From Nereocystis luetkeana (taxonomy: Eukaryota; Sar; Phaeophyceae; Laminariales; Laminariaceae): a stretch of DNA of 64,000 bases. The notes under the pieces were generated by a model that did not search any database, was not told the origin of the DNA, and was given only the letters and a program-made list of their open reading frames with translations. Where the stretch lies: assembly GCA_031213475.1 (NCBI GenBank), contig JARUPZ010000024.1, positions 2,825,403 to 2,889,402 of the forward strand, written 5' to 3'. Made by a program: the position numbers and the translations under genes. The stretch's first letter is position 1. Every line of letters begins with the position of its first letter. Below, piece by piece: positions 3,301-63,284 of this stretch.

Positions 3301-6300
3301 GTAACCCCCGCGATATGCGCGCCGCCTAGGCTATCTAGGTGCCGGAATTGGAATAAGTCTCTCCCTGGTTCCCAAAAACTCTGTCATGACCGGTGTTACC
3401 AACACGAGCACGCAAAAAAAAATAATCTGATACGTGCCGTAAAAGCCTCATCGGCGTTATACATGGGATTGGGGCGGAAGAGGAGCAACAGAGAGATCAG
3501 ACAGCGGCCTAGAGGCGCGCGGCATTTCGGCAAAGGCTAGGCGCGTGCTCGCGAGTGGGTTCAAGTACCCGCGACAAACGCGCCGCCTAGGCTATCTAGG
3601 TGCCGGAATTTCATCACGTCTCATCTACACTTTCCAGTTTCCCCCGCTCTCCTTCAAGGCAACTCTTACTTACCCTGATCACCGATGCCCGAACGAATCG
3701 AACCCCCCTCCCCCCCATGCCGCGTATATGGACGACTAGGCCAATGATCTCAACGCCCACCAGTAGGACACAGTTCGACGACAAGCTTCGAGTGCGACGA
3801 AGGTGGTAGACAAACGATGACAGCGACGACGGCTACTGCCACTGCTGCAGCCATGGCCATTGCTACAACCACCTCCACTCGTACTCCCGCTGCTCACACA
3901 AACACGACTTACTACACACTGCAACAGATACAACCACGACGACTACTATCGCGACACCAGCCGTCAACACCACACTCATTCGTCACGCGCTGCCAGACAC
4001 AAAAACGGCAGCGGGCAACAACGCTATATCTCTCACCCCCCGTGGCCATGCTCTGAGCACCGTCCGCCCCCGCGTTATCCTCCCAGCTCAGCCTGATCGG
4101 GTAGGGAGTCGCCTCCACCACCGTGAACTCCTTTACCTTGAACCTAAAGGAGAGAAAGAAGAAGAAACAAGTTAAAACGCGCAGTACGGGGTAGAGCAGT
4201 ACGTGGCCCCTCTATAGTGCTGGTTTTCATCATACGGTGCCTGTGAAATCGCTTGGCACAGATGGAACTAACCGGTGTATCAGTGCGTCGAGTAGTGCCG
4301 GTCGCCGCCATATATAGTGCCGGCATTGTCGGCTAAATAGCGCATGCCGGCACTATGGAGGGACCACCACTGCAGTACCTGGTACAAATTTAGCGGGTAC
4401 TGGCAATACTAGTCACAAAATACCAAACCCTTTTAGTTTGTGTGTATGCGTGCCCCCCCCCCTCCCTTGACATGGAGAAAAACAACCTGGAATTTCATCC
4501 TAGGGGATGTGACATTTGCGTGCAATACGGTAAGCTTTACACGGGTGCATATTCAGCACGTACCGGAGGACAAGGCGCACACTGGAGGGCCGCACAAAGC
4601 TCCCCGCGATGCAGGGTGACACGCGTCGGACCACCCCGAACAAAGGCAAAAGAAAAAATAAATTACTGACACCAAACTATTAACCCCGAGATATATGACC
4701 ACAAAAAAAAAAGAAGCGGACTTTTCTTTGGGATCAACAGCACCCATTTAATGCACGAGCAGCGTGAGCACGCGCCGCAGGGTCGGTAGGAACACGTTCC
4801 GCCCGTGCCGTTACGGCTCTCCCTGCTTTCAACCATTGCGACTCGGACACCAACCATTGCATCATCCCTCGATCTCGCAGTGGGGGGTGCACGATGCTGT
4901 AATCTTCGCTTTTTATCGTGTCATGTGTGTTTCCCGCTCTGACGACCTGAGATGGTCAGAACAGGAACGCGTAGGCTATATACCGCCCGAGGTACAATAC
5001 GATACCATAGTTTTGCTGCAGCCTGTAGTTTTTTTTTTTTTGCCACGACAGGCAGGGTTTCAGGGAAGCGAGCTAATGTGAGATCATCATCATCAACATC
5101 AACACCATCACCATTAGCGCAAGAAAAACTCTATTAATAGTGTAGTTGCCAAGTACATTATTACGGGGGACCCTAGTTAACAGGACCTATGGTGTACATA
5201 AAAACCTATATATGTAACCATTTTTACTGACAATATTTGGTCCTGTTAACTATGGCCCCCCGTAATAGTACAGCAGCCGTGGTCCCTCCCTCCATCGTGA
5301 CGGCATGTATGCGCCAGCCAGCAATACCGGCAATATGAAGCTACAACCAGCGCTGCTCCCGCGCACTGCCACACTAGCGAGTCCCATCCGTTCAAAGCGA
5401 TCCCACAGCCACTCTACAGCGGGCAACCAACACTATTACTCAGCCGGCACTACATAGGGACCCCTGCTGTACGGCATTAAAAAAGCACAACCAAAACCCC
5501 TGCATCGTACACTACACGCCCACACACACACGCACAATTTCACGATGTGCGTGCATCAAAACCGATTTCGGCGACAGCAAAAAGGACGCCCTTAGGACCA
5601 CCCCCCCCCCCCACTAGCGCGAAACACCCTGGACCGTTATTTACCGGCTAGAAAGCATGGCGCACTGGAGCGCGCAGCCCCTGGCGATGCTCTCGTCGGC
5701 GTTCATCGTGCAGCTAAGCCCAAAGTTGAGGGCCGCCTTGTCCCGGCCCAGCAGATCCGACAGGTGGGACTTCACCAGGGGCACCCTGCAGCACCAGGCC
5801 GTCGGTAGAGACCGTGCCGTGACGCCGTAGAAAGGAAAGGAGGACGGGCATGAGGGCGGCGGAGGGGGGGGGTATGGGTAACACGTTTGAGAGAAGGGAG
5901 GGGAGGGGCGGGGGGGATAACAAAAGAATAGATTTGGGTGGGGGGCGGGGTTGGATTTGAAGAAAACTGATTGGGAGGGGAGGGGTACTCATGCCATGCA
6001 CGACCGCAAGCGTATGATCATAGAACCTTGCGTTTCGACAAAGCCGGGACGGACACCGTACAGACAGCCAATGCTTGCACCGAGCGCGAACCGTCGTGAG
6101 GTGTTGAGCGGGTCGCATGCAGGACGTGAAGGGCCAACTGCATCCCTTCACAGTAAGAATCAGCGATGCAAATTTCCCGACAGCGGTAATTACCCGAAAT
6201 CAACAAAGCTCTCCAGTAAGTCATTTTGTTTTGTTCAGAGCAAATTATTCACGTCCCCCGTCAACGGGCAAACAACGCCTCCATTGGGAATGGGAAACCC

Positions 6301-9300
6301 CCGTTCATACGGGGTGAGCTGAATCTGACCTTCACAGCAAAAAAACGCTCGTGACGCGGACTCTCTTTGCGTTGGGGTGACACGGTCGAATGTTGGGACA
6401 ATTAAGTTCTGTGTCCGAACCACAGCGCAAGGAAAATCGTACAATATAAAGGCGCAGCAGCACGCTCCTACTTCGTGCTACCTGCCGCGGGGTCCTACAG
6501 CTCCAAGACGGTTTACATAATACCAAACGTTTATTTTGTTTGGTTGCAAAATCTGGGTCGCAAAAAGGTTACATATTCAAGACTAACCCCGCACGAACAC
6601 GGCGTACGCGAACAATTCGGCTGGAACCATCTCAGTTGCTTATAACCTGGTACCCGGCGTATTATAATAGCTCCAACCCATGAGACCTTCCCAAGATGTA
6701 ACATAACCCCACAGAAAATAGATTAAAAGTGACATTTCGGGCACTTTTTGCCACGACCTCAGGAAGGTCCCCAAGTTCGTGGGCTGAGGCCATTTTTTTA
6801 TACACAGGAAACAGACCTGAAAGGAACTCAAGACCGAATTGGTTTCAGCAGAATTCTTGGCTTAGCACCCTATATAACGGTAGTGTTACGGGGGACCATA
6901 GTAAATAGGACCAAATATTGTTAGTAAAAATAGTGAAATATAGAGGTTTTTGTGTCCACCGTAGGTCCTACCTGGTATTTACTATGCCCCCCCGTAATAG
7001 CTCAACGTTTCATACCACAGGTATAATATACCTCTCTGCACGAAAATGTATGGATCGCTTAGTTCTTGCTAACGCTTGAATGTTTCTCCTATTTTCCAGG
7101 TACACATTTCGTTTTTGTTCCAATCACCTAGTGGAGCCGCCAACGATCTCCACGGAGCCGAGCTGCTCCTTCGTGACACCAGCCTCTTTCAAGGCCTTCA
7201 GGACGGGGACATCCATGCGCTTCACCAGGGGTCCAGCGAGGGCCTGGAACTGCTTCAGGCTCAATCTCCCGTTGTAGTCAAGCTTTTTGGGGGAGGGAGG
7301 GAGGGAGGAAGGGAGGGGGGAAGAGCGATGGCGGGGAGACGGGGAAAGGCAGAAGCCATTAATATGAGTGCTATCTTGAAAAATCAAGGAAGGCGTGACT
7401 GCTGCGATGTAAATTACATATTTGCCAGGTTCGCCTATTGAGCAGGCATTCGTTGTTGCTTACGTGTGTTACTTGCTTAGACAAAATAGTAGCAGCCTAA
7501 TCTTGCCGTAAAACCCCTGGTTTCTTCACCCAAGACACGCCTCCCAGGTACCTCAAAACACGATCCCAATACCTGTAACCCGTTACTTGCAGGACGTTCC
7601 GCAAACATTCAAGCAGTATATACCCTTGACACACTCACGTCTTCCCAGAGGCACTCGATGTTAATGGGCGCATCGTTCACTCCCACGGGGGACAGCTGCT
7701 TCTTCGCTCGCTCCGCCGCGTCGAGGAGCTTCAGCAGGGCCTTGGGCTTCGTTCGCGGGTCCTTTTATTTTTGCGACCATGGTTTTGAGGGCAATTTATG
7801 GAGGCGGCGGGAGGGGGGCAAGAGAGAGTGGAGCATGGGCCGGGGTCAAGAAAACACAATGGTAGCTACGTAGGTATAGAGGGTCGAGAAAAAAGCAAGG
7901 TATTTACGGAGGACCATAGTTAGTAGGACCTGTGGTTTACATAAAAACCTACATATTTAACCATTTCTACCAACAATATTTGGTCCTATTAACTATGGCC
8001 CCCCGTAATAGCTACTGTATGTATACACAAGGCGCACTTTTGGGTATGACAGGAGCGACAACAGCAAAAGCTCACCACGCTCTACAGACCCACAATAAGA
8101 CAAGTAGCAGCAGCAGCAGCAGCAGCTAGCAACATGAAAAGAAGGGCGGACTGGAACACAAAACCAGACAATAATATAACCTTCCGTAACTCACCATAGC
8201 GAGGTAAAGTCAAGCCGAGCCACACAGGTACAAAAATCAAGAAGCAAACCCACACCCGAGCAAAATTCCTCCAACCAAAATCAAGCCAAGAACAACCACC
8301 AAGAGCACAATACAAAAACCCGTCGCCGTCTTGTTGGCCTACAACTCGTCGGCACAGCGTCACCCACCAAGCAAGCCCTAGAGAAAAGTCACCGCCAATG
8401 CAAAACCTCCACGCAAAATCACCAAGCCAACCCACCGAGGAACACGCTTCAAAACGAAGGAAAACCCACACCTTCCACATCTTGGCCTGGAAATTGTCGG
8501 CGCAGCGTCACTACGTAGCCAAAATCATCCGTCGAAACCATCACCAGGCAGTTGGAAGGCAAAATCTCCAGCCGAAAACCCCTATTCGGAAAGCAAAACC
8601 ACCAACCTAAAACGGGGCACCATAGTAAATAGGACCTACGGTACACACAAAAACCTACCTATATATTAGCCTATTTTTACTGACAACATTTGGTCCTATT
8701 TACTGTGGCCCCCCGTAATAAGCACAGCCCAAGAAACCCAAGACACATTTTCTCCGTGTTCGATTAGGACTCGTCGTGGGAGTTGTCACAAAGTGTCACG
8801 AAACAAAACCACCGGTCAAAATCACCAGGCAGAATCGCCGAGCAAAATCGCTATAACTAAGCTACTTGGGATGATTCCCAGGAACACAAACGAAAGACGC
8901 ACCTTCCCCGTCTTCGCTTGGAACTCGTCGGCGCAGTGCTGCGCGATGGCCCAGTCGATGTCCCTCCCGCCCAGCCTGCTATCGAACGCCGCGCTCTTCA
9001 CCGTCAAAGACCCCTGGAACACCGTATAAAAAACGTTACGGTTGGTTGTGGTTACAGCTTCACGCTACGGTCACAGGTACACTTCCAGCAGAAACGACTA
9101 TTGCGGACACAGTAACAGTAGCAGAAACGGTTACATTTGCAGTTTTAGGTACAGATATACAGCAGCTACGGTAAAAAAAAAATGGTTACGTTTACGAGTA
9201 CGATCTTTTGGTTACGGTTACAGTTACGTGCCACAACGACCGGCTACATTTGCGGTTACAGCAACAGCAGCAGAAACGGTGCACAGTTGCAGTGACGGTT

Positions 9301-9506: not shown

Positions 9507-9538
<32 letters not shown>

Positions 9539-12500
9539 TTCACCCCGCCTTTAGATACCACGTACACGCATACCCTAGGAACATAACAATACCCGAAATA
9601 TTACAAGCCGTACAAGACGCTAGTTTACCAGATGTACGTGACAATACAGCAGTGTGTCGGTCTCTCTGAAGTGCCGATATACGCCGGCCAACAATACCCG
9701 CACTGTAGCGGCCACCGGCACTAATCGGGACACTGCCACACTGGTTAACCCCACATGTGCCAAGCGATTTCACCGGCAATATATAGGTCAGCCGGCACTA
9801 TTATACCCAACCGGTACAATAGAGGGACCGCTACTGCACCTGAACGAAGGTGACGACAGCGGCGCTGAAGCTGGAGTGCCCGATGTCCAAGAAAAGGACA
9901 TTTTGCGGCTCCTGGGAGGAAAAGCAACACGGCGCCAGGAGGCCAGGAGGCAGCAATTAGCAGACGAAAAAAGCGGGCGGGTCAACGTCAGCATTTGACC
10001 AGATGCAAAAAAAAAGATGAAGCAGCAAACAGCAGCACCACCAGCAGATGGGTACGTACAAGCGCGAACAGCAGCCGCATCGACACACCCGAAGCAGGCG
10101 CATCAACAAATATCCATCAGCACTATCTATAGCACCAAATGCACATACCAGGTACATGCGTGCAAAAAAAATCCCAGGCGATAAATCAATGCTCGTACGA
10201 GTGGACACGATACGCGACAGAAGAAACCATTCCACCCGGGAAGGTCACAACAACACCGCTCAAGTGAACGCCTCCTGTATACTGTAGTTATACCGAAAAC
10301 GCTCAACCCATCGTAGAACAGTCCGAAAAAACTCCTACCAAGGTACGTATTCACCAACACAAGCGCGGCAAATTAAAAAAGATGAACATGATGAAAACGC
10401 CTTCCTATACTCGTAGCTCTTTCTGGTGGAACTCTCCCGCGATGGACTTGTAGGTGTCGTAGGCCAGCACGGTTGCCGCATGATAGTAAGGAGGCATTTA
10501 TCATTTGTTGGGTCACTTCAAGTTAGCCACGTAACGGTTCAAAGCACCGAAAAGGGCAAACAACAGTTGTGCTACATACACGTACTACATATAGTCAGTA
10601 CTGTAATATCGAAGCAGTATCACGTGTACCTGGTATTAATAGCTCCAATCCCAAGCAATTCGTCACACAGTAGTAAAGTGCGCAAGCAGCTGTTTTTTTT
10701 TACAACACGAAAAACGCCTGCGTACAAGCACCTTCTCGTGGAACTCCCCCTTGGCGGACTTGTAAATGCCGTACGCCAGCGCGGTGGCCGTGTGCTCGTG
10801 GATCAACCGCAGGCAGTTTACGCCGCCGATCGCGCAAGCGCTCTGCGCGCGCAGCCGACAGTACCACATCGAACACCGACGACAGTACAGCATTGAAAAA
10901 AAGGAAGCAGCAGACAAACAGCAGCAAGTAGCGGAATCATGGTCAGCAGCAAGAGCAGCAGGAGGGGCAGCAGGAGGAGCAGCAGCAGCAGCAGAGTAAA
11001 TTAGGTAGTAGAAGACACGACAGACAAAAACAGATATACAAGGAGGAGCAACTTTGCGCTGGAATTTTGAGGCATCAGCCCGTCGAAAAGAGGAGCGTAC
11101 ATGAGTATGCACACCCTGTTCCCCTCCCGCCGTCCTCCAACTGGCATCCCCCCCCACCCGCCGTCCCCCTACTGGCATTATCATAGTAACCCCGGACACC
11201 CCCACGATCGAATCCAGCACCCCTACCATCACCATGGCACCGTATGATTGCGATAGGTGGGACGTTTGCACAGCGACCGTGAATCTACGGGCGGCGATTT
11301 TGGCCGGAAGGTATGCAAAGCGAGCGTTATCAAGCCCCGTGACGACGTTCCTTGGCCGAAAGGTGTGCAAAGCGAGCGCTATTTAGCCCTGTGACGGACG
11401 TCGATTGGCTGGAGGTTGTACTCAGGTCAGGGCACCAACGAGGGGGGGGAGGGGGTTCGAGTCGGATGGTGTCAGCCACACCAGCGAACCCCTCACCAAC
11501 GTCACTACAGTAGTAGACCGCCCTGTTCCGATAGCAGTCGTCGCTGTTCGGCCAAACTATCTAAGGAGCGACGGGGGCTTGTTACTCTTCCAGGACTGCA
11601 TTCCCGTTATGGGGACAACCTACCATTACGGGGGACCATAGTTAAAGGGACCAAATACTGTTGGTAAAAATGGCTAAACATAAAGGTTTTTATATATACC
11701 ATAGGTCCTATTAACTATGGCCTCAAGATGGGACGGCACTCCTGAAAGGGTTGGTGGCCGGGGAGCTACCCAGTGTCGTCGGAACGTCACTTTTTTTTCT
11801 TCTACAAAGAGTATTCGTCGCATACGAAAGACACGGGGGGTATTCTGATTTTTGTTGTTGCCAGTTTTTGGGTGGAGATGTATAAGAGACTGCCTCCGGC
11901 GAGGATAGGAGCCTCAGGAAAAATAGCGGTTCCCGTTACCGTGCCAAGCACATGGCCTTATTAAAGTACTACTATTCTCGTTTTTTTTACGCCACTTTTT
12001 CGATCGATAAAGAGAAATTCCTCAAGTAGGGGTAGGAGCCTTAACTATAACGGGGGGGCGTAGTATATAGGACCTACGATACACACAACAAACCTATGTA
12101 TTCCCAATTTTTATGAACAATGTTGGGTCCTATTTACTATGGTCTTCCGTAATAGGAGTTACCGCCATACATGGCAAAAACACGCCACCGCCACCACCAT
12201 CACCACTACCACCACCACCACCACCACCACCACCGCCATTCGCTGCCCCACTCACCATCATCGCGTTCCTCATGGAGTCTGTGTACCAGCCGGGGATGGC
12301 CATGACCGTGTCAGCGACGTCGATGCCGTTGTTCGCGGCCTTTGCGATCGCGACCAGCTGCAGCAAGAAGGACAGATGGGAGGCGGAAGCGAGGAGGGGG
12401 GGGGGGGGGGGGGTCGTAACACCGTAACAAAACAGCAACAAGCAAAACGCGTGCTGGAGCCGAACGGGCGAAAGGGATATACCCCCATAAGAGACCTTCT

Positions 12501-15500
12501 CAGATTGATGGGCAATAGGGTCGGGGGGTCGAATCCACCACCCCCGTCATGGTGACAAGACATAAAAAAACAGTGAAATTGAAGGCGAACTTTGAAAGAC
12601 AAAACCGCAAGTATAATACCAGGTAGCTGGCAAGGTCACGGGATAGTCTGCCAACAATCGCAACCGTCACGTTGACGACGAAACAAGAAAAGGCGTGTGT
12701 GGGGGGTGGGCGGGGGAGGGGCCGTCCTCATTTGTGGCTCGTCTTTATTCGAACATCCATTTCGAGACGGAGCACCATTCCTGCTCCTACAAGAGACACC
12801 TCCAACATTTGGGCAGTCACTGCTTGTTTTCCACATACTACGTGTGTTTTTTGGCAGGTGGGGGGGGGGGGGGGGGGTGTACTCGATAGGAGAGATGTGG
12901 GGGGGGGGGGAAGGAACCCATGTCATGAATAGCCGTACTCGTGCGTATGACAATAGACCCCTCGCATCGCTACAATGCCGGGACGGGGCACGTCGGGTTT
13001 TCACCGATCCGGCAGACATGGCTTGTTGCACCGCAAGGTGAAGAGCCCGGGAGGTGTTGGCGAGTCGCATAGAGAGTGGGCTGCGTCCTACTGAGAACCG
13101 CGTGTGAGGCGATCTCGGCACGTTGTGCGTACTTTCTTGCATATGGATAACAGCGTCGAAATATTTGATGGGAGGGGTTTCGAACAACAAAACATGAGGG
13201 GGGGGAAGGGGGGGGGGGGGTCCCGAAAAACGGACGAAGACGGAGAGGGGCCTCGAAACAAAGAAAAGGAGGGGGGGGGGGGGGGAACAAAACATATTTC
13301 CCCTCCATTCGCGTCAACTGGTACCAGGTAGTGTGTAATATTCACCTTGGTTAGCATACATGCCACGATCTGTTCGGGTGTGAAAATCTGTGTGCTGTCC
13401 TCGTAGTCCAGCTCGATCCCCACGCCCCCGGTTTTCGGGTGCTTGCTGAGGCATTCGGACGGAGGAGGGAGGGGGGGGGTGAAGAGGTGAACTGTCAGCG
13501 GGGGGGAAAAGGGCTTGCTACAATATATACAATAAACATTACCAGGTACCTGCGTAGCTCGATTCCTACATACGTTCCCTCTTACTGACAACCACCTGCC
13601 CTGCTTCCCTATATTCCACCACTCCCTGGCCCTACCCGCTCCGTCTCGAAAGGGATGGGTCAATGGACAAATGAACAATAAGGCAAGCAAGCAATCAGTA
13701 CGCCTCCGCCTCCGCCTCCGCCCCCTCTTCCCTTCCCTTTTTTCATAGCAACTCCGTCGCTCTCCCCACCCCTTTCCCTTTCTCAACAACCGCCGGCCAA
13801 CGGGAGGGCTTCCTCGATGGGAGATAACAGTACGCGATACGATTCGTTGAGAATTTAGTCCGTCGGTGTTTTTGGCCAACCGAATTTACCGCTGGAAAGT
13901 CCATTCTCATATTCAAGTTTCCGTGCCGAGCCAAAAAAACGTTTTCACCTCTTTGAAATCCGTTTTTCTAAATTCGAGTTTCCGTGCCAAAACGCTGCAT
14001 ATACCGCTCTTCACCTTTTTAGCACCGCAGTCCCGTTTGGGGACAAATTACTTAAAAATTGACCGGTTTATCCCCAAACAGGACTGTAGTCCTACAAAAG
14101 GTTCATGAAGTCCATTCTCTCTCACAACCATGGACGTCCTTAACCATTCCAGTACTGCACTTTACAGAAATACGTACTCACCACTCTGGACGGAAATTTA
14201 AGGATCGTTTAGTATTCGTTCAAGTGTAAAAACAATCCTTATACTTCCGACCACAGTGCTATCAGTCCTAAATAGGTTTCACCTCTACACTAAAAGCCAA
14301 TAAAAAGTGCCCCGCACTAATTTACCCTCAAACTCAAGGTTCCCAAAAAAAATGTGCCCCAAACTGATTACCCTTACATTTGACGTCAAAAAGGCCTCTC
14401 CCACTAATTCCAAGTCGCATGTTCCAAGAAACTTTAGGTTAACCCTTTTAGAACCGCAGTCTCGTTTTGGGGACATACCAGTCAAATTTCAAGTAGTTTG
14501 TCCCCAAAACGGAACTGCGGTTCTATAGGGGTTAAAAACCAATGTCTCACGGCAGTAATTACCCATATATATATTGATAAAGAAGTGTCCAACACTAATT
14601 CCGAGTATATGCCCCAAATAAAATGGTTGCAGTTCTCGAGAGGGTTGAGAAGGACCCCCCACAGTTGCCTGTGCTGTATTTCAGGCAGAACCTCACATGC
14701 CCTCGAAGGCAAGCGGCTTAAGGTCCACCTGTAGAGGAAACGTCTCAAATCGGAAAAACCCTACTCGTACGTACCGCTGTCCTGCAGTTCCAGGCCCGTT
14801 TCGCGTGCACTTGGAGGACAGCAGTCGCTTGAGATCCTTCCTACATAATCAACCTCTTCAAGCGGATACTCCGACTACCGTGCTCAAAGTTCAGGCCCAC
14901 GCCAAAACGCACTTTAAGGGGGAACCGCTTGAAGTCTCCCGCCTAGGAGCCCGTCTCAAAAGAAGGTATCCCACAATAACTGTCCTGTACGAGTAATCAA
15001 CGCCAGCCGCTCGCCTCACATGCATCTGAAGGCGCCACTTGAGACCCATCTACGAAACCTCTTCATCCGATGCGATACCCCACCACGTACTACTGTCCTG
15101 TGATTCCAGGCCCCGCCTCACATGCACTTGAAGGGAAGCCGTTTGAGGTCCGCCTCGAGGTCGGGAGAGCCCCAGGAGCGCCCGACCAGGCGCTTCACCT
15201 CCCTGACCGTGTTCTTGAAGTTGCTCTTCGCGATGCTGGCCGCCCCCTCCCCCATCAGCCGCTGCTTCCCCTGGAAGGAAACCTGGTTTGGTTGGGATTC
15301 CCGAGATCGGAACGGGATTCCCGAGCAAGGAACGGGACGGGCGAGAGACCGACCGCGTGTGGAGAGAGAGCGAGCGAGCGAAAGGGTGAATAAGGAAAAT
15401 AAAAAACGCTTTTCGTGGCCCCCAAAAGCCCCAATCATTGCAGGCGATGAGAGAAGCGAGCGAGAGGTCGAAAGAGTGAAGAAAGAAGAAAGAAAAGAAG

Positions 15501-17960
15501 AAAAAAAAACTCACACTTTTTGCCCCCCCGTCCCGCTATTATAGGGATGAGACGGTCTATGGTTATACATACGACTACGGCAATGCATGAGATCGAGTAC
15601 ATATCACCTATCGAGTACCCCCCACACACACGCATTCCCCACACCCCCTCTCCAGAACCACAACCATCACACACGACGAAAGAACAAGAGTTCCAATAAC
15701 AATGTCTACATTCCGTACGTAGGCAATGTGTTGTGTCTCGTGTGTCTCCCTCTCTCAAAACACCCAGACGGTCATCTTCTTCAGGGGTGTTTACTACCGG
15801 TTCAGACCGCGAGGTTCAGGTCCGATCAGAAGACCCCGGGTCTGAGCGACCGCACCATGCGAGAGTCATGTGCACCATATCTGTTATATGCCTCGGATGT
15901 AACAGTGTGCAGGTAATGTGTCCGATACCGGCGGTAGCATCATCCACTGCCACTGTACCTGAAGCAGTGCGTACATCTCCCCATACAGACGATGCATGGA
16001 GGACCATTAGCGGCTCCGCGGACATGTCCCCCCTGACAGTCTTTGAAGGCAGCTTGTCGACTGGCAGGACTACCGAGTCCGCGGCGGAGTCGGAGGCTCC
16101 GGTAGGCCGAGTGTGTCCTCACCCATACAGCAGTATACCACTGCCATGTCCGCTGTTACCCAACGGAGTGGGTATACCGTAGGTGTGGGAGCTCATGGCA
16201 AGTCCTCCCTACCCTCGGTACCGGTGGCCGGTAAGTGGTATACTGCTGTATGGGTGAGGACACACTCGGCCTACCGGAGCCTCCGACTCCGCGACTCACC
16301 GTATTACCCCCACCACCATCCTTCATCACTCGGGCCATGGCAGCCACGCACCGTACCAGTGAACAAGCCGGCCGCCCCGGTGGTTCAAGTGGTTAACCTC
16401 GAATTCTACTTGTTTGAGTCCTGGGTTCGAGCCCCAGGTGGGTCGGACTTTGACTTTATTTGCAAAAATAAAAAAGGATTCAATTGTTGAGAGCGCCTTG
16501 CAGCGTGGGTATATAGGCACAATTCGATGCGAGTCGACGAGGGAAGAAAAGGCTGAAATATTCTCGCGATAAAAAGGAAGGCACGTACCGTAGCGGGAAG
16601 GGGGTAGAAGAGCCTGCTATGTGACCCCGGATCTGAGTCACGAGTTGGAAGGAGAGAGAGAAGAAGATGTGCGAAGATGATGAATGGGATGAGGAAAAAA
16701 AAAAAAAAAAAAAAGAAGAAGGGGATACCCGACCCGATCCGTGAGAGTTAAGAAAAATCTCCCCACCCGACCTAATCTCACCCGACCAGTGAGAGTTGAA
16801 AAAAAAGCCGACCCGACCCGGCCCGCGTCGGCCGGGTCATGACCCTTGGCGACTCTTTTTTTTTCCTGGCTGACGCTCTTACCAAAGAATGACAGGAGTC
16901 CACACCACGAGCAAACATATATATTTTCAAAAGGGTACGGACGTACGTTGCTGGCAAGCATTCCCGTGTCTTTCGTATGTTCTCTCTCTACCAGGGTCGG
17001 GTTCTTCGGCTGGAGGTCTCGTCAACCCTTTTTAGAGTACCGCGCTGCTCGGCTGGAGGTCTCGTCAACCCTTTTCATCACCGCGCTGCACCAGAAACAT
17101 GTATCTGCAGAACCTCTAGTTCCAACTATTCCCTCCGCTTGCCTCAAAATGGGAGTGCAGTCCGGAAGGGGTTACGACAGCAGCCCCGTTTTGGGGACGA
17201 ACCGGTCAATTTTCATATGGTTTGACCCCACAACGGGACTGCAGTCCTACAAGGGTTCAGGAAGAACAGTAATAGGCCACACTCCTGCTGAAAAGTCATA
17301 CTGGTTCGTGTGGAAGAAAACACAGGAGACATCCAGCATGAATTTCAGCGACACTTCCAAGAGTACAAGACATCGGGTAATTGGTGGATGAAGACCCAAG
17401 GTTTTTCCCTGCGGAGGCATTCGGAGGTGGGGTGGCGCAAGGTAAAAAGCCCGACAACATTTCGTGTATAGCAAAAAAAACCCCGAATATATAGAGGCCC
17501 AATACCACCAGTTGAAGTTTTGAAAGTATATACAACCCAAGAAGCAAACGGCATAATGACCAGGGAGAGAAAAATCGACACCACTCATCGGCACCACTCT
17601 GACCAAGCAAATAAGCTCCGTTTCATATTCATTTCACACTCCAAATGTTGCCTATTTCCCCTGTCAGAATGATACGTACCAGGCATACGTGTAAACTGTA
17701 CCAGGTAAATATTTGTGAAAACTACAAACGTCACCTGTGAGTGAGATCGAGGATTTCGTCGAAGCTCATGTTTGCAAGCTGTGCGTGATACTACTGCTGT
17801 CGTGATGCTTCGATCGTACATATCTATCTATCACGCTCTCTCTCACCAGAGTAGGGTTCTTTCGGTTGGAGCTCTCGTTGAGGATTATGTCAATCCCGCC
17901 CCTGGCCGCCATTCCGATTTTGCAGCACTCATTGCCGAAGTCGATACCGATCACCGACAT
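368..17960 (-). CDS. HSP110: Hsp110-type chaperone (Hsp70 superfamily), 14 exons, 3' end outside window
   Basis: Known role of the family: ATP-dependent cytosolic chaperone and nucleotide-exchange factor for Hsp70. Exons read on the minus strand: 17960-17847, 15282-15122, 13445-13346, 12357-12256, 10842-10732, 9911-9840, 9013-8903, 7761-7639, 7282-7128, 5785-5645, 4143-4037, 1733-1651, 1092-985, 478-368. They total 1599 bp, 533 codons, and the phase agrees at every junction. All introns are GT-AG and 12 of 14 donors are GTG. The start is the ATG of MSVIGIDFGNECCKIG, the phosphate-1 loop. FLDIGHSS (about 203-210) is the Hsp110 form of phosphate-2, and VEIVGGSTR (about 341-349) is the adenosine motif. 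Residues 1 to about 390 form the ATPase domain and residues from about 397 the beta substrate-binding domain, with an acidic EEGEEDAAEAEA insert near 433-444. Family members are usually 780-860 residues, so the C-terminal lid is missing here. Exon 5 has an unusual GTGCTT donor. I am sure of the family; exact boundaries are hand-called. Confidence 0.93.
570..895. repeat. Degenerate 12-18 bp tandem repeat rich in ACCGTCAACGTTACC
   Basis: Variants of 'accgtcaacgttaccgcc' run through most of intron 13, between exons 13 and 14. They produce spurious Thr/Val-rich and Arg/Gln-rich open frames on the plus strand. A similar 6-bp-period sequence fills the intron side of exon 7 at 9030-9400. Confidence 0.7.
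1229..1342. mobile_element. MITE family B, copy 1 (diverged)
   Basis: The left end is AACGGGGGACC and the right end GGTCACCCCGCAA. The internal 'aaatattgttggtaaaaa' is shared with the other B copies. This is the most eroded copy and sits in intron 12. Confidence 0.7.
1375..1628. repeat. Repeated CCAATCA motifs in intron 12
   Basis: CCAATCA or CCGATCA/CCAATCG recurs about every 25-50 bp (near 1410, 1430, 1451, 1513, 1576, 1597), commonly as 'ggaccaatca'. It looks like a decayed tandem repeat next to the 3' end of exon 12. CCAAT-box function is possible but unsupported. Confidence 0.5.
1770..2050. repeat. Degenerate tandem repeat with TTTTCGTTTCGCACAGCAAG core
   Basis: Four imperfect units (near 1785, 1845, 1905, 2020) share 'ttcgtttcgcacagcaagcaa'. 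They lie just upstream of exon 12 in transcription order. Confidence 0.6.
2245..3622. repeat. Six-unit tandem array, period about 247 bp, each unit with a hairpin core
   Basis: The core 'gctaggcgcgtgctcgcgag' followed by 'gggttcaagtacccgcgaca' recurs near 2299, 2537, 2780, 3030, 3277 (diverged) and 3535. The cores are nearly identical (130-140 bp), while the roughly 110 bp between them differ. Each core folds on itself: GCTAGGCGCG pairs with CGCGCCGCCTAGGC. The array occupies intron 11. Dispersed-core amplification is one explanation. Confidence 0.85.
3623..4030. other. Intron 11 remainder; no feature recognised
   Basis: Simple 'acgacgacg' and 'actgctgca' stretches give short spurious open frames. 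No exon or repeat family was identified between the hairpin array and exon 11. Confidence 0.4.
4190..4376. mobile_element. MITE family D, copy 1
   Basis: Ends are inverted: 'cagtacgtggcccctctatagtgc' on the left, and 'gcactatggagggaccaccactgcag' on the right. The interior repeats 'tagtgccgg'. It lies in intron 10. A TACCTGGTA footprint (4376-4384) abuts the right end. Confidence 0.75.
4385..5160. other. Intron 10 segment; no feature recognised
   Basis: A minus-strand frame around 4745-4830 faintly resembles an Hsp110 segment but has no matching splice sites or phase. A (CATCAA/CATCAC)n patch is at 5083-5115. Confidence 0.4.
5161..5265. mobile_element. MITE family B, copy 2
   Basis: Ends are TTACGGGGGACC and GGCCCCCCGTAA, flanked by TA on both sides. 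The copy is about 105 bp and lies in intron 10. It has no coding capacity, as expected for a non-autonomous TA-targeting element. Confidence 0.85.
5267..5474. mobile_element. MITE family D, copy 2
   Basis: The ends 'acagcagccgtggtccctcc' and 'catagggacccctgctgta' are inverted. It sits immediately beside MITE B copy 2 in intron 10. Confidence 0.7.
5860..6150 (-). repeat. Dispersed poly-C repeat (family C), partial, minus orientation
   Basis: Positions 5985-6145 match the reverse complement of the element at 40400-40620 (ATGCATGA..GCCGTAGTCGTATG, cggcattgtagg-like and gcgactcgcccaacacctc motifs). It is preceded by a G-rich tract at 5865-5950. It lies in intron 9, upstream of exon 10. Confidence 0.7.
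6151..6885. other. Intron 9 segment; no feature recognised
   Basis: No exon, repeat family or RNA gene was identified. Short open frames on both strands lack recognisable domains. Confidence 0.4.
6886..6997. mobile_element. MITE family B, copy 3, carrying a 7-bp TA-duplicating insertion
   Basis: The left arm reads GGACCATAGTAAATAGGACC. The right arm should be its mirror but is broken by CCTGGTA after GGTCCTA, giving TACCTGGTA at 6969-6977. The left arm of the same element thus shows what the right arm looked like before the insertion. Confidence 0.9.
7904..8008. mobile_element. MITE family B, copy 4
   Basis: Ends are TTACGGAGGACC and GGCCCCCCGTAA with TA flanks. It is close to full length and lies in intron 7. 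Confidence 0.85.
8095..8127. repeat. (CAG)n microsatellite
   Basis: A short run of AGCAGCAGC repeats lies in intron 7. Confidence 0.7.
8319..8795 (-). repeat. Echoes of the exon 7 3' end, period about 150 bp, in intron 7
   Basis: Exon 7 ends near 8899-8950. Decayed copies of its last 45 bp and donor lie at 8746-8790, 8467-8520 and 8319-8368, with a possible fourth near 8178. The copy at 8467-8520 still reads ADNFQAKMWK followed by GTGTGG, against ADEFQAKTGK followed by GTGCGT in the exon. Spacing is about 150 bp once the MITE B at 8609-8718 is removed. The exon boundary thus appears to be the first unit of a tandem array. Confidence 0.75.
8609..8718. mobile_element. MITE family B, copy 5
   Basis: Left end AACGGGGCACC, right end GGCCCCCCGTAA, with the conserved B interior. 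It is inserted inside the exon 7 echo array, so it is younger than that array. Confidence 0.85.
9030..9405. repeat. Degenerate CGGTTACAGTTACG repeat
   Basis: A six-base periodic 'ggttac/agttac' sequence covers most of the intron 6 flank of exon 7. On the minus strand it reads as GTAACC/GTAACTG repeats, like those at 570-895. Confidence 0.65.
9463..9540. repeat. Long poly-C tract
   Basis: The run is nearly pure C with a few A and T interruptions. It is the longest homopolymer in the window and lies in intron 6. Sequencing or assembly length errors are likely here. Confidence 0.85.
9645..9838. mobile_element. MITE family D, copy 3, ending at the exon 6 donor
   Basis: Ends are 'acagcagtgtgtcggtctct' and 'agagggaccgctactgca', with internal 'gccggcacta' motifs. 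The right end runs into the 5' splice site of intron 6: on the minus strand CAG|GTGCAGTAGCGGTCCCTC, where the donor bases correspond to the outer end of the element. Confidence 0.75.
10402..10490 (-). repeat. Echo of the exon 5 3' end in intron 5
   Basis: On the minus strand this reads ATVLAYDTYKSIAGEFHQKE, against ATALAYGIYKSAKGEFHEK in exon 5 (10732-10842). It lies 313 bp further into the intron. The frame stays open to a stop shortly after, but the first half of the exon and an acceptor are absent. A decayed duplicate is therefore more likely than an alternative exon. Confidence 0.8.
10845..11625. other. Intron 4 segment; no exon recognised
   Basis: AGCAGC simple repeats occur at 10905-10995. 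A plus-strand B-box-like GGGTTCGAGTC at 11451-11462 lacks a tRNA fold. The minus-strand open frame covering 10663-11370 is only the exon 5 frame running on into intron. Confidence 0.45.
11626..11722. mobile_element. MITE family B, copy 6 (right tip lost)
   Basis: It begins TTACGGGGGACCATAGTTAA. The right arm stops at TTAACTATGGCC without the CCCCGTAA tip. It lies in intron 4. Confidence 0.8.
11723..12047. other. Intron 4 segment; nothing recognised
   Basis: This AT-richer sequence between two MITE B copies shows no exon, repeat family or RNA gene. Confidence 0.4.
12048..12152. mobile_element. MITE family B, copy 7
   Basis: Left TAACGGGGGGGCGTAGTATATAGGACC, with matching inverted right end GGTCCTATTTACTATGGTC. 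It lies in intron 4, about 100 bp from the exon 4 donor. A (CAC)n patch follows at 12185-12237. Confidence 0.8.
12850..13170 (-). repeat. Dispersed poly-C repeat (family C), minus orientation
   Basis: It starts with G-runs and 'gtgtactcgataggagagatg', followed by the reverse complement of the body at 40400-40620. It ends near 'catatggataacagcgtcga'. Further G-runs flank it at 13200-13285. It lies in intron 3. Confidence 0.8.
14013..14104. mobile_element. MITE family A, copy 1
   Basis: It is a near-palindrome: 'agcaccgcagtcccgtttgg' on one side and 'ccaaacaggactgtagtcct' on the other. The spacer is short and AT-rich. It lies in intron 2. Confidence 0.8.
14280..14640. repeat. Degenerate GTGCCCC..ACTAATT repeat around MITE A copy 2
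   Basis: Variants of 'cactaattccaagt' and 'gtgccccaaactgatta' recur near 14307, 14352, 14401, 14594 and 14612. The unit is too eroded to define a period. Confidence 0.4.
14439..14535. mobile_element. MITE family A, copy 2
   Basis: The TTAACCCTTTTAGAACCGCAG arm is mirrored by CTGCGGTTCTATAGGGGTTAA. Both ends contain TTAA. It lies in intron 2. Confidence 0.85.
14688..15065 (-). repeat. Echoes of the exon 2 3' end, period about 106 bp, in intron 2
   Basis: The exon 2 end with its donor spans 15111-15167. Four decayed copies begin near 15010, 14896, 14795 and 14688. Each keeps a CCTCACATGCACTTGAAGG-like start (the donor and FKCM codons) and a 'cgcttgagatc' block (the DLKRLP codons). Spacers share 'actgtcctg..ttccagg'. 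This is a tandem array whose outermost unit is the functional exon end. Confidence 0.8.
15545..15640 (+). repeat. Family C fragment
   Basis: 'Gagacggtctatggttatac..' to 'tatcgagtacccccc' matches the 3' end of the family C body. It lies in intron 1. Confidence 0.65.
15641..16078. other. Intron 1 segment; nothing recognised
   Basis: Several open frames on both strands are present, but none with a recognisable domain. Confidence 0.4.
16084..16293. repeat. Inverted repeat, arms about 60 bp, spacer about 90 bp
   Basis: The left arm (16084-16143) 'cggagtcggaggctccggta' and onward is the nearly perfect reverse complement of 16233-16293. The arms would form a stable hairpin. No related copy was seen in the window. 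Confidence 0.85.
16370..16445 (+). other. tRNA-like sequence (pseudo-tRNA or SINE head)
   Basis: It is 76 nt with a perfect T arm (CTGGG-TTCGAGC-CCCAG), a 3-bp D stem (GGT/ACC) around TTCAAGTGG, and a 5-bp anticodon stem (CGAAT/GTTTG). The acceptor stem pairs at only five of seven positions. The anticodon loop (TCTACTT) lacks U33. It is probably a decayed tRNA or tRNA-derived SINE and not a working gene. Confidence 0.45.
16979..17085 (-). repeat. Echoes of the exon 1 3' end in intron 1
   Basis: Exon 1 ends at 17836-17880 (plus strand 'tctcaccagagtagggttct' then 'ttcggttggagctctcgtt'). Positions 16979-17025 repeat this as 'tctaccagggtcgggttctt' and 'cggctggaggtctcgtc'. A second partial copy lies at 17045-17083. 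Confidence 0.7.
17166..17259. mobile_element. MITE family A, copy 3
   Basis: 'Cagccccgttttggggacga' is mirrored by 'gaccccacaacgggactgca'. The outer tips are eroded. It lies in intron 1. Confidence 0.75.
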
Positions 17961-19224: not shown

Positions 19225-19480
19225 GATTGACACGACACATCCTACTGTAAATGGAAGCCTGCACACGTCGGATAGATCATCTACAGAGATATCATCAACA
19301 GATAGGTCGTTTACAGATAGATCACCTACCGACAGATCATCTACAGATAGGTCGTCCACAGATAGATCATGTACCATGGATCATACACATACCAGGTACA
19401 TATTATTTACAGATAGATCATCTACAGATAGATCATATACACATATATCGTCTAGATTATCCAGATACTAGCCTGCCGTT
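19225..19480. repeat. GATC-rich tandem repeat 'acagatagatcatct'
   Basis: A 12-15 bp unit built on AGATAGATCATCTAC is repeated about a dozen times. It produces an artificial Asp/Leu/Ser peptide repeat on the minus strand. Confidence 0.8.
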
Positions 19481-21960
19481 TCCGATATGCTGTACAGGGG
19501 CTGTGTACAAACAGTACATATCCAACCCCGGAAACATGTCCACGACCATATGCAGCCTCACCCGGCAATAGGAGTTATGGATCACAGATCAGAAACACAG
19601 GTCAGGTACATCTTCCCTAAAAGATCTAGATCATGCCGTAGGGACCGATCATCTGTCGGACGGATGGAAGTGTGGTGAGTTTAACTCGCTCAGGACTACA
19701 CGGGCGTTCCGGGGACACTCTCCTTCGAATTAGAGTCATACCAGGTATACCACTCTTGTCTCCGAACATAAGGAAATACTTAATTGAATATTGATGTAAA
19801 AACATTCCTTATATTTCGGGACAGAGTCGTAATATGTTTCTGTACATCAGCGGAGTGCTCTTCATGGAAGGGTTAAAAGCTTTCTTGTCTTTCACCCATC
19901 CACCGGAAGACACACAAAAACAAACAAAAAAAGAGCTCAATATTCCTCGCAAAACTCCTTCACAAAGGGGACCGCGACGGGCCTCGCCGTGCCTCGGTCG
20001 ACGACTTGACACACCCCATAAAGGACGAATTTACACGCTGGTTTAATCTCGACGACAGCATGGAGAGTGTAAATGCCCAGCGGCGCGTCTCCGAAAAGAC
20101 ACCGACCACGTAGATATTTCCAACGCCATTATTTTCGTTGTGTGTGCCCCCCTCAAGGCATGTTTACGAAAACTTCGGCTCCGAAGTTGGTAGCAGGGGG
20201 TGTGCCATCTTAATGCCCGAGTGATATGGAAGTGGTGCGATTCGAGGTTCTTTGTGCGCACGCGCGGCCTGCTGGGTGTAAATCATTGTGGAAGGGTGGA
20301 AACCCATGTGGCTGTAAAGTAGAGCTTTACCGTATGGCACACTGCCGTTCTGTCCCATACCAAGTATACACCGGTATGAACATAGATGTAAGGACGTCGG
20401 CCGGGTGTCAACGGTATCACGGGATGGGATCGATCGGGATGTCAACTGCACTATATTACCACGGAATGGGAGGATCATCCCGACTCCCGCGTTATCCCGT
20501 TATTGCTTCCAAGCACTATAGAAAACGAGTGCTACATGAATGCAAGCTGACAGTACAGGAACACACGAAAGCATATAGGAGGCTTTGAAGACAGCTTGCA
20601 ATGCGCCCCTTCAAAAATGAGAAGCCCAGTCTGGGTCAGCATCTCGATTTCTTATCAATAAAAGGCGTCCTGTACCTATCGATACGCGTCCCGCACCTAT
20701 TGACTGGAGTCCATACCTATGCATAGGCGTCCTGTGCTACTGCTTTATGTGCAGCAGTACTACCGTAGTAGGATCAGCAGTAGTGCGACGGTGTAGCTTG
20801 CACTGCTGCTGTAACCTATGGGTATCGAATTCGGGGAGATTGCTGGGAGCCACTACTGCTCATCTTGCGGCAAAGCCGTAACCCTGCAACACAACTCCTG
20901 CAGAACCACAGCTGCTTCGTTCGCCCACACCAACCGTTCGTGTTTTTGAAAAACGAACAAACAAGCAGAGCGGCGAAGCCTTTGCGAAGGTCCTGCCGAC
21001 CTCGGGTCGGGTCGGGGCTAGGGCTAAGGTTACCGCATCACACAGATCACAAGAAAACACACCCCCTCGGACAAAATTCGAAGCTGGTTTTCTCGACAAT
21101 GGGGAAGGCGTAAACGCCTAGCGATGCAGTCTATGGAAATATCTCGTTCGAGATTTTTCTAAAGCCGCCATTTATGTTGTGTGTGCCACCCCCTGGGTTT
21201 CGAGAAACTCGGCTCGGAAATTCGTCCCAGGGTGTGTGATATCTTTTATCACCCGTGTGATACGGTATCGGGGTTGGGTCGGGCGGCGGCAACGCTCACA
21301 GACAAAACGTTGATTCCAGAAGGCTATGCCAAAAAGAGGGGTTGGTCGTCCCACAGCAGGGTTAGGGAAACGCTAATTACGCACCGGGTCTGGGGATAAA
21401 ACTCTGCACGCCCTCTTACTCTATGCTGGTTTAAAAGGTATGTTGCCTCCCGCTATATGCCTGTTGGTGGAAACCCTCGATTTTGGCGGATTGGGTCGGA
21501 GAACTGAGATCAAGATGCTTCTCGGGCCCTGCCGGCGGCCACCTACCATAGTGTATATACACAGGGTCAGGTTTGGAGGGCCATGACCGGGTGGGACCAG
21601 GGAGCCAAGCCGGAACAGGGTGGGGGCTTGCAAAGCGTTAGTTGCACACTCAGGTCATAAAATAGGCGTCGTTGGAAAGTGATGGCGGAACGCTCAGTGC
21701 ACACCTCTTCGTAGTTTGCTGGGGGTTCTTTCTATTTTCCTCCGGTGGTAGTGCTGAAGTACGTGAGCGGAAGGGCGACGAGGAAGTGGCGAAGGACAGG
21801 AGGACACCACACCATCCGATAGTGGCGCAAGGCTAAACGACAGAGGGCGGGAGAGAGGGGGGACATCAAGAGAGGAAACGAAACACCCGTACGCACAGGG
21901 GTGCACGACTACTGCGAGACAAAACGACACCACACGCCTACGTATTATTAACAGGAGCCT
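19481..21960. other. Intergenic; diverged repeat pair, no gene recognised
   Basis: Segments 20050-20230 and 21095-21270 are distant copies of each other: 'aatgcccagc' against 'aacgcctagc', then 'ttgtgtgtgcc', 'ctcggctc' and 'gtgtgatat'. The rest shows only short open frames without domains. Confidence 0.4.
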
Positions 21961-28375: not shown

Positions 28376-28382
28376 TGTCCTA

Positions 28383-28494
28383 TTATGGGGGACCATTGTT
28401 AATAGGACCAAATATTGTTAGTAAAAATGGTTAAATATACCCCAGGTAGTTTTTTATGTATGCCATAGGTCCTATTAACTATGGTCCCCCGCAA
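28383..28494. mobile_element. MITE family B, copy 8, with a CCCCAGGTA insertion
   Basis: Ends are TTATGGGGGACC and GGTCCCCCGCAA, with TA flanks. The interior carries an extra CCCCAGGTA after AAATATA relative to other B copies, a longer variant of the TACCWGGTA footprint. Confidence 0.88.
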
Positions 28495-33582: not shown

Positions 33583-34306
<724 letters not shown>

Positions 34307-47425: not shown

Positions 47426-47890
47426 GCGGAGGCGGGGGTTGCTGTTACATGTAACCACTGCTGGAGGCAAGCGGCGTTTTTTTACCCGCGCTCGAGGGCA
47501 AATATGGGAGAGGGGACCGCAGTTTAACACTTTCGGCTGACCGGTCTCTATTTTACACCAAAAAAATAGCGAACTACTGGCAAAAGTGGCGTTGATGCGT
47601 CTTTTACTATACCTGGTAGCATTTTCGCCCGTGACTCCTGGACTGACCGCGCCCTTCACTAAAGGTAGCACCGAAATATACGCCATTGACGCGTCCGGAA
47701 AGACCGGTCTCGCGTATCAGTCTGGGCAGGAATGTGAGGACCGTTCGTGTATAAATATTATTATTGCACGGCCAAGGAACGGTTTGGCGTGCGTATTCCA
47801 CAAGGTGTGTACTCGTAACCATTTATTTGTTGTTCGTGGTTGGTCGGGTTTGTTGTATGAGGAGTTGAACGCATATCTTTAGGCCTCCGT
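47426..47890. other. Intergenic; nothing recognised
   Basis: A 98-codon open frame at 47586-47882 (plus) begins with a hydrophobic stretch (LLYLVAFSPVTPGL), but I see no family or splice context. It includes a TACCTGGTA footprint at 47610-47618. Confidence 0.35.
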
Positions 47891-48414: not shown

Positions 48415-49803
48415 CAAGGCGCATCGCGCCGCGGGCGGCCTACACCGCCCGCTACGCTCGCTCAGAAAGGAAAAGTACATCAACTTACTACTTGTTCGCG
48501 AAGCCGACAGAGGTCCATGAGTGAATATAATTTTATGATCGTAGTTGCAAACAGGCGACTTGATAATGCCAAGAGTCCCGCCGCCATGCTTCAGGAGAAA
48601 ACAGCTCGGACGCCACAGGCGCTTCGCGTAGCGGACGGAACCGCCCACGCTCGCTAAAATGCCGTACGTACGTACGTGTACGTACGTACGTACCACAGGT
48701 AGGGTACTTATTTTCTTCTTTTAATACCAGGGTAAGCTGTATGTACGGAAAAGAGAAAGCATAACATGGCACAGCAGCACCGCAAAAACAATGTAAATGA
48801 TACCGAAAATTTCGGGAAGAAGAGAAAATCCCCGTCCCTCTCATGTAATGAGTAAAGCTGTATGCACGGAAAAGAAAAAGCATGGCACGGCGCAGCAGCA
48901 CCGCAAAAACAATGTAAATGAAACCGAAAATTTCGGGAAGAAGAGAAAATCCCCGTCCCTCTCATGTACCAGGTAATGAGTAAATAAAGCTGTGTGCACG
49001 GAAAAGAGAAAGCATAGCACGGCACAGCAGCACCGCAAAAACAATGTAAATGAAACCGAAAATTTCGGGAAGAAGAGAAAATCCCCGTCCCTCTCATGTA
49101 ATGAGTTTCTGCCTGATTGGAACACCTTACACGGGTCAGAAAAAACCCCGCACAACAGTGGAGCTTCTCTCTCAGCCTCGTACGCCGCCCGCCCCTTTCG
49201 CGACCACCTCGCCACCGATTCGGTCCGGGTAAAGCTTCCCTTGCTCTCTGCCACAGTGAGCCCCGTCGCCCGCCTCGCGATAAGCCGGGTGTTCACCTTG
49301 GCCGTCGTTCGCCAGCTCGACAATGTTGTTGCTCAGACTGGGTAGTTCTCTCTGTGTTTTTTAGCCCAGTCGCAAAAATAAGCACCGCTTGAATCTTACC
49401 TTGCAATCCCGAAATACCCTTCTATACTCGTAAATACTCAATCGAATTATTATGCAGATGGAGGCCAGACAGAGCCCATTCGTGCTTCCCTCTTCTCTGG
49501 AGGCACACGTGACGCCTAGGCACGAAATCGACGACCGCGCTCCTTTCGACCCCTCCTCTACCCGCCAGCACCCGCTGACACCTGCGACGGCGCTGGGCTC
49601 GCCCGCGGTGCCGTGCTCCGAGTACACGCACGCACACGAAAAACAAAATAAGAAAAAAGGAAAAACAGGACAGAAAGTGCCAAGAGAAATGGAGAAAACA
49701 AAGAACTGCTGGAAAGGTCCGGCAAGTTATAAAAGGAGGCGATTTCCAAGTGGGAGCTCTGAGAGGCCAGGGATGTACGAACCGAGCACGCTCAGAGAGT
49801 GAG
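48415..49803. repeat. Dispersed repeat R1, copy 1 (about 1.4 kb)
   Basis: It matches 53452-54563 block by block: 'gcgggcggcctacaccgc', 'gacttgataatgccaagagt', 'gcacagcagcaccgcaaaaa', 'cagctcgacaatgttgttgc', 'tccaagtgggagctctgaga'. Unlike copy 2, it contains three tandem units of about 125 bp at 48727-49110. The second unit carries a TACCAGGTA insertion. Coding capacity is unclear. The minus-strand peptide NIVELANDG is shared by both copies. Confidence 0.8.
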
Positions 49804-58190: not shown

Positions 58191-58204
58191 TTCGAGCGGA
58201 AATC

Positions 58205-60830: not shown

Positions 60831-60839
60831 ACTAAGCCC

Positions 60840-62556: not shown

Positions 62557-62559
62557 TAC

Positions 62560-62790
62560 TGCTTTGTATGAGGTTGAAAGCCCGGTAATTACCTGGGTTC
62601 TGGCACTGGGATCGTATTTGTAGTACTTGGAAGGCGTATCTTAGGTGGAAAAACAGGGGGTTTCCAGAGAGGCACGAGCGTGGTCTCAGTCTCCGTGGTG
62701 CACGAAAGGAATGCAGTGGCTCTTCCATCTCTAAGCGAACATCAACGTGACTACCTGGTACCAATGAGTACCGGCTTAATAGGCAGACCT
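62560..62790. repeat. Dispersed repeat R2, copy 2, with TACCTGGTA insertion
   Basis: It is homologous to 54566-54806. At 62752-62760 it carries TACCTGGTA, where copy 1 has a single TA. Confidence 0.8.
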
Positions 62791-63284
62791 GCCCAGGGAT
62801 ACAAAGAAGTGTCCCGCTGTCCATGATCTTAACACAAGTGCTTCACACTTAAACCTAGTAGTTGGGTGTTAGTCAAGCTTGTCAAGTCAAAAGTTCCTGC
62901 GTGTCAAGGGGTGAAAATGCCGTCTCCCGACATCTTTCCTTGTTGTTCTTGTGCTCACAGCCCCCCCTTGAGCAACGTAGATTTCTTCATGGCGTTAGCT
63001 GTATGCTGCAAGTTGTGTCTTCATAAAATACATACCTGGTAGTGTAAAGGCGTACAGCGACGCATTATGTCATCTACGCTATGACAACACAGCCAAGTAC
63101 CCTCGCACGTACGTTCACAAGCAAGCATTCTTTCAGGCATTTTACCTCTTGAAAAAAAACTACTCGATTTCAGTATATCAGGTATATAGTAGTAGGATTT
63201 CTCCTTACGGCGGTGAACAGGTATTATTACCAGGCATTTTTTCACGCATTTTACCACCTGAAACCAAACTACTTGAAATTAGTC
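62791..63284. other. Spacer between the R3 copies; nothing recognised
   Basis: It includes two related 'caggcattttaccwcttgaaa' words near 63135 and 63233, and a footprint at 63033-63041. No gene seen. Confidence 0.4.

Follow-up and report, generated by a model that had tools for sequence, protein, structure and literature searches.

Why should 64,000 nucleotides of the genome of the brown alga Nereocystis luetkeana (contig C24, 2825403-2889402; hereafter the window) carry one nine-letter word, TACCWGGTA, again and again? The first-pass annotation of this DNA had counted 20 exact sites and put the excess at about 40-fold. Every coordinate proves exact; 0.40 sites are expected from dinucleotide shuffles, and none of 100 shuffles reached 20. 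A 264-kb sample, made up of the window and 20 further stretches of 10 kb (2,500 letters of one of these, L012, being N), holds 97 sites, 39-fold above the order-2 Markov expectation. The word is a palindrome, with A as its centre letter in 43 of the sampled sites and T in 54. The ten 9-mers that outnumber it in the sample are homopolymers, short-unit repeats or N, and no other TA-N5-TA word is comparable, the runner-up (17-fold, 9 counts) belonging to the sequence of a miniature inverted-repeat transposable element (MITE). In the whole assembly of 465,085,209 bp and 1,987 contigs there are 182,395 exact copies, about one per 2.5 kb, against 1,744 for a control consisting of the same pattern read backwards, which rules out the normal genome-wide frequency that the annotation had named as grounds for abandoning the motif.

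The answer proposed here is that each TACCWGGTA is very probably the footprint of a TA-targeting cut-and-paste transposon, one past excision having left each copy. The parent is a candidate element, claimed only to work like such a transposon. Excision footprints are a textbook phenomenon. With one genome alone, excision usually escapes notice: a short footprint is lost in the background, and a precisely repaired site bears no trace at all. With a scar that is a 9-letter word, and a rare one, past excisions become countable, placeable and roughly datable within one assembly. The sites of the window that are read as footprints, with two variants, are as follows (strand given where one is assigned; the site at 10627 is compound and is listed further on):

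4376..4384, TACCTGGTA footprint, exact match
6969..6977, TACCTGGTA footprint in a MITE copy; not in the mirror arm or in aligned sister MITEs
10146..10154, TACCAGGTA footprint, exact match
12617..12625, TACCAGGTA footprint, exact match
13322..13330, TACCAGGTA footprint, exact match
13540..13548, TACCAGGTA footprint, exact match
17699..17707, TACCAGGTA footprint, exact match
19390..19398, TACCAGGTA footprint, exact match
19739..19747, TACCAGGTA footprint, exact match
25444..25452, TACCTGGTA footprint, exact match
26993..27001, TACCTGGTA footprint in a tandem repeat, with 7 bases missing here from two paralogues
28438..28448, minus strand, TACCTGGGGTA, 7-nt variant footprint in a MITE copy, as read on the minus strand
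30871..30879, TACCAGGTA footprint, exact match
34537..34545, TACCAGGTA footprint, exact match
38508..38516, TACCAGGTA footprint, exact match
44582..44590, TACCTGGTA footprint, exact match
47610..47618, TACCTGGTA footprint, exact match
48725..48734, plus strand, TACCAGGGTA, 6-nt variant footprint
48967..48975, TACCAGGTA footprint; not in sister tandem units
62752..62760, TACCTGGTA footprint; not in the paralogue at 54566-54806
63033..63041, TACCTGGTA footprint, exact match

At three of these sites (6969, 48967 and 62752) comparison with copies lacking the word had earlier suggested an insertion of CCWGG plus a duplicated TA, and this is borne out: each has seven additional bases, CCWGGTA, at what is a single TA in the other copies. 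The 7-bp gain over sister copies, five bases plus a TA, amounts to the TA target duplication of the IS630-Tc1-mariner-pogo elements. A paralogue spanning or abutting the site exists within the sample for only 16 of the 97 sites; among 13 further sites that were displayed, four have a gap of 7-8 nt at the TA (L018 4563, L026 7056, window 26993 and L012 3808), the other nine being too diverged, uncovered or interrupted by other gaps.

MITEs provide further pairs of copies with and without the word. A MITE of about 107 bp with the terminal inverted repeat (TIR) TTACGGGGGACC occupies 23 distinct places in 317 kb, strand readings merged. Three MITE copies of the window are relevant to the footprints:

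6881..7000, plus strand, MITE copy bearing the 6969 footprint
28380..28499, minus strand, MITE copy with the 28438-28448 footprint at its hot TA
33743..33857, minus strand, MITE copy without a CCWGG footprint

The second of these contains the variant that the annotation had reported as a 9-bp form near 28436; it is present, reading TACCCCAGGTA, within the MITE copy. Alleles at the MITE hot TA were read genome-wide through exact anchors 0 to 9 bases apart, inserts of more than 9 bases being invisible by this means, with 5,494 anchor matches. The 100 matches listed are all from contig C1; 86 of them are empty, and the 14 filled ones have the inserts CCAGG (nine), CCTGG at the adjacent TA, CCGGG, CCGG, CCA and CCCTGG (one each), and no insert of up to 9 bases among these 100 falls outside the CC-tip series. 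With slightly different anchors the 5-nt form at this TA has 1,016 matches genome-wide. The suggestion that the shorter alleles might be deletions fails in the MITE copies, where the short allele, the empty form of those 86 matches, is the consensus. When the 14 filled and six empty copies were aligned, no private substitutions common to the filled ones were apparent by eye, and by that judgement the insertions therefore look like independent events. Some MITE copies (L108, L110, L118) hold two or three footprints. As a separate observation, a MITE copy at L094 is broken near its hot TA by CCCTAA repeats, telomeric in looks.

The CCWGG form is accompanied by minor ones. In the sample, TACCAGGGTA occurs nine times and TACCTGGGTA not at all; TACCAGTA is 2.5-fold over expectation (22 sites, though a one-base loss from TACCAGGTA yields the same word), TACCGGTA is 3.2-fold over (14 sites, both strands counted), TACCATGGTA 7.6-fold over (2 sites), and the nested word TACCWGGTACCWGGTA is found four times. 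At the MITE site AAAACCTACCWGGV has 373 places, and the 100 matches listed comprise 73 with CAGGG, eight with CTGGG and 19 with other letters. Of the 18 CAGGG stretches fetched (20 stretches overall), 14 are TACCAGGGTA, ten of these in MITE copies; TACCAGTA is present in 14 of 20 fetched stretches, and those 14 are MITE-bearing. Because TACCAGTA, TACCAGGGTA and TACCATA are asymmetric, they point to putative element tips of the form 5'-CCA(G), and CCWGG would then be the junction of two tips, not necessarily a tip itself. Taking k bases of a CCAG tip with m of its reverse complement gives CCA (3+0), CCAG (4+0), CCGG (2+2), CCAGG or CCTGG (3+2 or 2+3) and CCAGGG (4+2). In the earlier interpretation, excision footprints of a TA-targeting transposon fit best, while its CCWGG ends give way to tips that are more probably CCA(G).

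The events leading to a scar can be envisaged as follows. The element would insert at a TA whose surroundings resemble WANNATR-TA-YATNNTW and duplicate that TA. On excision, the transposase would cut the two strands at staggered positions, a few bases in from the ends of the element, so that both flanks are left with 3' overhangs starting CCA(G). Host end joining would then seal the break, with some three bases retained from one tip and two from the other. The product would be symmetric, with A or T at its centre: TA-CCA-GG-TA or TA-CC-TGG-TA. Cut-and-paste of this kind would move the element without multiplying it, at one scar per move, and scars could therefore far outnumber copies.

A second scar-like word in the same genome still has a candidate parent beside it. 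TATTAATA is 40-fold over expectation in the sample (61 sites), and its extended form YTATTAATAR has 40,259 copies genome-wide versus 3,513 for the control; a paralogue comparison in L012 gives a change from TA to TATTAATA. Two features link it to the TTACGGGGG MITE: its core of TT+AA corresponds to that element's tips, which are TT...AA, and T-A-C stands at -3 to -1 in both, the frequencies from -1 to -3 being C.51, A.59 and T.60 for the 61 word sites and C.58, A.55 and T.59 for the 64 TTACGG MITE ends. With core and flanks matching the tips and insertion flanks of an element still present, TATTAATA appears to be the putative excision scar of the TTACGGGGG MITE. The two systems are alike in pairing a TA-targeting element with an abundant scar word; they differ in context (TAC|TA versus WANNATR|TA), in the 4-base core of TATTAATA and in its candidate parent, which is still common. 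The features concerned are:

5132..5139, TATTAATA, putative footprint of the TTACGGGGG MITE, from word and flanks
10634, 26646, 33184, 33563, 36750, 50756, 55255 and 57608, further TATTAATA starts in the window
5159..5270, plus strand, MITE with TIR TTACGGGGGACC between TA duplications, proposed source of TATTAATA
10627..10641, compound scar TACCTGG-TA-TTAA-TA, apparent CCWGG and TTAA footprints with one common TA

This pair bears on the best-surviving rival, in which no element was ever involved and breaks made by a TA-specific nuclease or transposase were filled with CCWGG as an ultra-short insertion. The near constancy of the insert and the failure to find a parent in the searched sequence are what such filling would lead one to see, but the graded series CCA, CCAG, CCGG, CCAGG and CCAGGG is that expected from variable joining of two CCAG tips, and the TATTAATA scar, a parallel case, comes with a MITE visible as its candidate parent; filling is on balance unlikely.

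The excision reading also concerns the target. The flanks had been described as unrelated, and by eye their sequences are; they are not random, however, but have in common a weak palindromic preference. Compared with all TA dinucleotides, R is preferred at -1 (p 6e-10), T at -2, A at -3, A at -6 (p 2e-18) and A/T at -7 (p 5e-17), and with the departure of these five positions from the all-TA background the palindromic preference around the TA typical of IS630-Tc1-mariner-pogo elements is present as well. The preference at -6 and -7 lies beyond the 9-mer and is a feature of the target site. When the sites are oriented by centre letter, left and right flanks do not differ; the idea that flank asymmetry sets the centre letter was dropped, R being stronger in only 13 of 26 strongly asymmetric sites.

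The scars have also decayed. One-mismatch words number 234 in the sample versus 108 expected, and exact words 194 versus 5 (both strands counted); at word positions 2, 3, 7 and 8 the most frequent change is a transition, as it is at 1 and 9 in pooled counts. Among 20 fetched stretches with TACCAGGTG, 15 are MITE copies in which the scar is altered at its last base. Decayed scars being common, and so many MITE scars mutated, the scars behave as old, inherited alleles, and look it. A single burst would put the ratio at about 8% per site, and longer steady activity fits equally well.

These data bear on three further explanations, each less probable than the filling of breaks. That selection has kept or spread TACCWGGTA as the site of a regulatory or chromatin protein would suit a perfect, dispersed palindrome whose one-mismatch forms are barely in excess at positions 4 and 6; it is very improbable, since in tandem units and MITE copies the word appears as an insertion of 7 bp, the overall one-mismatch excess is clear with transitions commonest at positions 2, 3, 7 and 8, and the preference at -6/-7 belongs to a target site. 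Programmed elimination, with TA-bounded elements removed from the sequenced somatic genome and kept in a germline form, would account for very many scars and no parents, but we know of no such system in brown algae, and the frequency of decayed scars, including the 15 MITE copies with TACCAGGTG, makes it just as improbable. Hitch-hiking, by which one repeat family bears the 9-mer and spreads it, has in its favour that some sites do lie inside MITE copies (6969, L026 7056); the unrelated flanks of the 97 sampled sites, the few that have a spanning or abutting paralogue and the filled MITE copies with no private changes in common, all as set out above, leave it hardly any probability. The ultra-short mobile insertion of the first-pass annotation, and the likeness of the CAG|GTA core to a splice junction that it had remarked on, both find no support, the word being a palindrome with near-equal centre letters and the copies with and without it differing by DNA insertions in dispersed MITEs.

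Several observations nevertheless weigh against the excision reading itself. The first is size: the main form is 5 nt, longer than the 2-4 nt given in the consulted part of PMC7913693, with 3-, 4- and 6-nt forms minor. TACCTGGGGTA (two in the sample, five among the matches listed) is a form that a CCAG tip would not yield, and among the matches listed three TACCAGGGTA are accompanied by one TACCTGGGTA. At the MITE hot TA the centre letter of the 5-nt scars is A in 74 and T in 26 among 100 matches listed (binomial p 2e-6); mismatch repair acting at random does not predict a strand bias of this kind at one particular site. Given 43:54 in the sample and 74:26 at this site, the choice of end seems to vary with the local sequence. 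A strict strand rule here, entertained from a ratio of 9:0 among the matches listed, was weakened by that larger list. The excess of one-mismatch words is not evenly spread, being small at positions 4 and 6 and largest at 5, and is not plain uniform decay; the excess at position 5 (C or G at the centre) may represent other joining products.

Further difficulties come from the search for a parent. Inverted-repeat pairs of the type TA-CCAG...CTGG-TA in the window, the sample and L001-L038 are only weak or made by footprints themselves, and a scan of the 264 kb for TA-flanked inverted repeats found MITEs and no CCAG element. The annotation had proposed looking for TA-flanked elements with CCAGG or CCTGG ends; that search was unrewarded, no terminal-inverted-repeat element with CCAG tips being recognised in about 0.3 Mb of the 465 Mb. 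Nor was any recognisable element end found in 100 short stretches around MITE-site patterns (six of them chosen as empty), which consist of footprints, mutated footprints, empty sites or unrelated sequence. Patterns at the hot TA with non-footprint next bases, fetched from 26 of 373, 36 of 430 and 20 of 119 places, gave only footprints, mutated footprints or unrelated sequence in those stretches. Profile searches of the genome returned no match to Pfam DDE_3 (PF13358), none to Transposase_1 (PF01359), for which the control genomes were also silent, and 28 to the pogo-like DDE_1 (PF03184), none linked to CCAG tips; one pogo-like family with one placeable end reads TA|CAGTGGGG, not CCAG. The parent is rarer than one recognisable copy in the 264 kb scanned, or extinct, and with no parent or transposase linked to the scars it is placed in no family.

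The pogo-like elements merit a few words of their own. A pair of loci (L029 38 and L031 ~1221) have one end at TA|CAGTGGGGGGCCC and are identical at 99.7% over 395 bp and at 100% over 288 bp; from this identity, the element has been active recently. No convincing terminal repeats emerged at five pogo-like loci when 2 kb of flanking sequence was added to one side or to both. At L016 8695-8906 lies a 210-bp element that may be a pogo-like MITE; its inverted ends, CAGTGGGC(A/G)CCCG, are at TA.

Among known systems, Mos1 mariner, whose tip begins CCAGG and which leaves 3-nt footprints, has tip letters CCA that would fit, and a 3-nt CCA footprint would read TACCATA, one of the minor forms; it differs in that the main product here is 5 nt and Transposase_1 went undetected in the genome, in a search without a positive control. 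The pogo-like DDE_1 elements of this genome likewise have TA at the one end placed (TA|CAGTGGGGGG), but their tip CAGTG predicts TACWGTA, which is 2.3-fold over in the sample, and not TACCWGGTA. Sleeping Beauty excision is reported to leave TAC(A/T)GTA (PMC3432063), and its transposase, like those of mariner elements, to make the first nick three nucleotides inside the element, the 3' overhangs being sealed by end joining (PMC7827188); footprints across Tc1/mariner are put at 2-4 bp (PMC7913693), all three as far as the consulted portions of these papers go. The Sleeping Beauty and Tc1 footprint described in the first two is alike in being TA-flanked and palindromic, with an A/T centre and one duplicated TA kept. 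The Sleeping Beauty core, however, is CAG/CTG, of three bases; here it is CCWGG, of five, in 182,395 exact copies in one genome.

No earlier report of TACCWGGTA as a scar, or of genome-wide footprint words, was found in the literature searched, which leaves out most subscription journals, and occurrences of TACCAGGTA there are unrelated as far as titles and abstract starts show. By way of comparison, an alignment of two rice species yielded 94 putative excision events, eight of them perfect, according to the part of PMC4423477 consulted. As far as checked, an archive of 182,395 near-uniform scars in one genome is new; its density and its mainly 5-nt form are unusual among footprints. Quite possibly, though we would not yet count on it, a lineage with an unusual stagger or end joining, giving the 5-nt footprint, moved more than 180,000 times without copies building up and is recorded almost only by its countable, datable and mappable scars. 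Such an archive allows one to ask how many jumps there were per surviving copy, where insertions survive and how the alga joins ends, and the excision reading, if true, predicts an undescribed element with CCA(G) tips. The exact scars, each of 7 bp, account for about 1.3 Mb of the genome, and one within a coding exon would shift the frame.

As for the rest of the window, scans for tRNA and for Rfam families (gathering threshold) came back empty, and there was no Pfam domain in the ten tested of its 39 open reading frames of at least 150 aa. A 97-bp near-palindromic MITE, piggyBac-like in appearance, lies at 14439-14535, at 47891-47987 and, outside the window, at L013 378-472; its ends are like ACCC(C/T)TTTAGAACCGCAGTC, and one copy has TTAACCC. 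A long (TAC)n microsatellite of about 239 copies occupies 33584-34305, and a direct duplication of about 715 bp (61842-62556 and 63285-64000) is 99.6% identical. Finally, the EsV_1_7_cys domain, large numbers of which are a mark of brown algae and here too suggest one, has 1,710 candidates in the genome, of which 150 were scored and all 150 exceeded the cut-off, while none of 14 control genomes matched; it constitutes a very large family.

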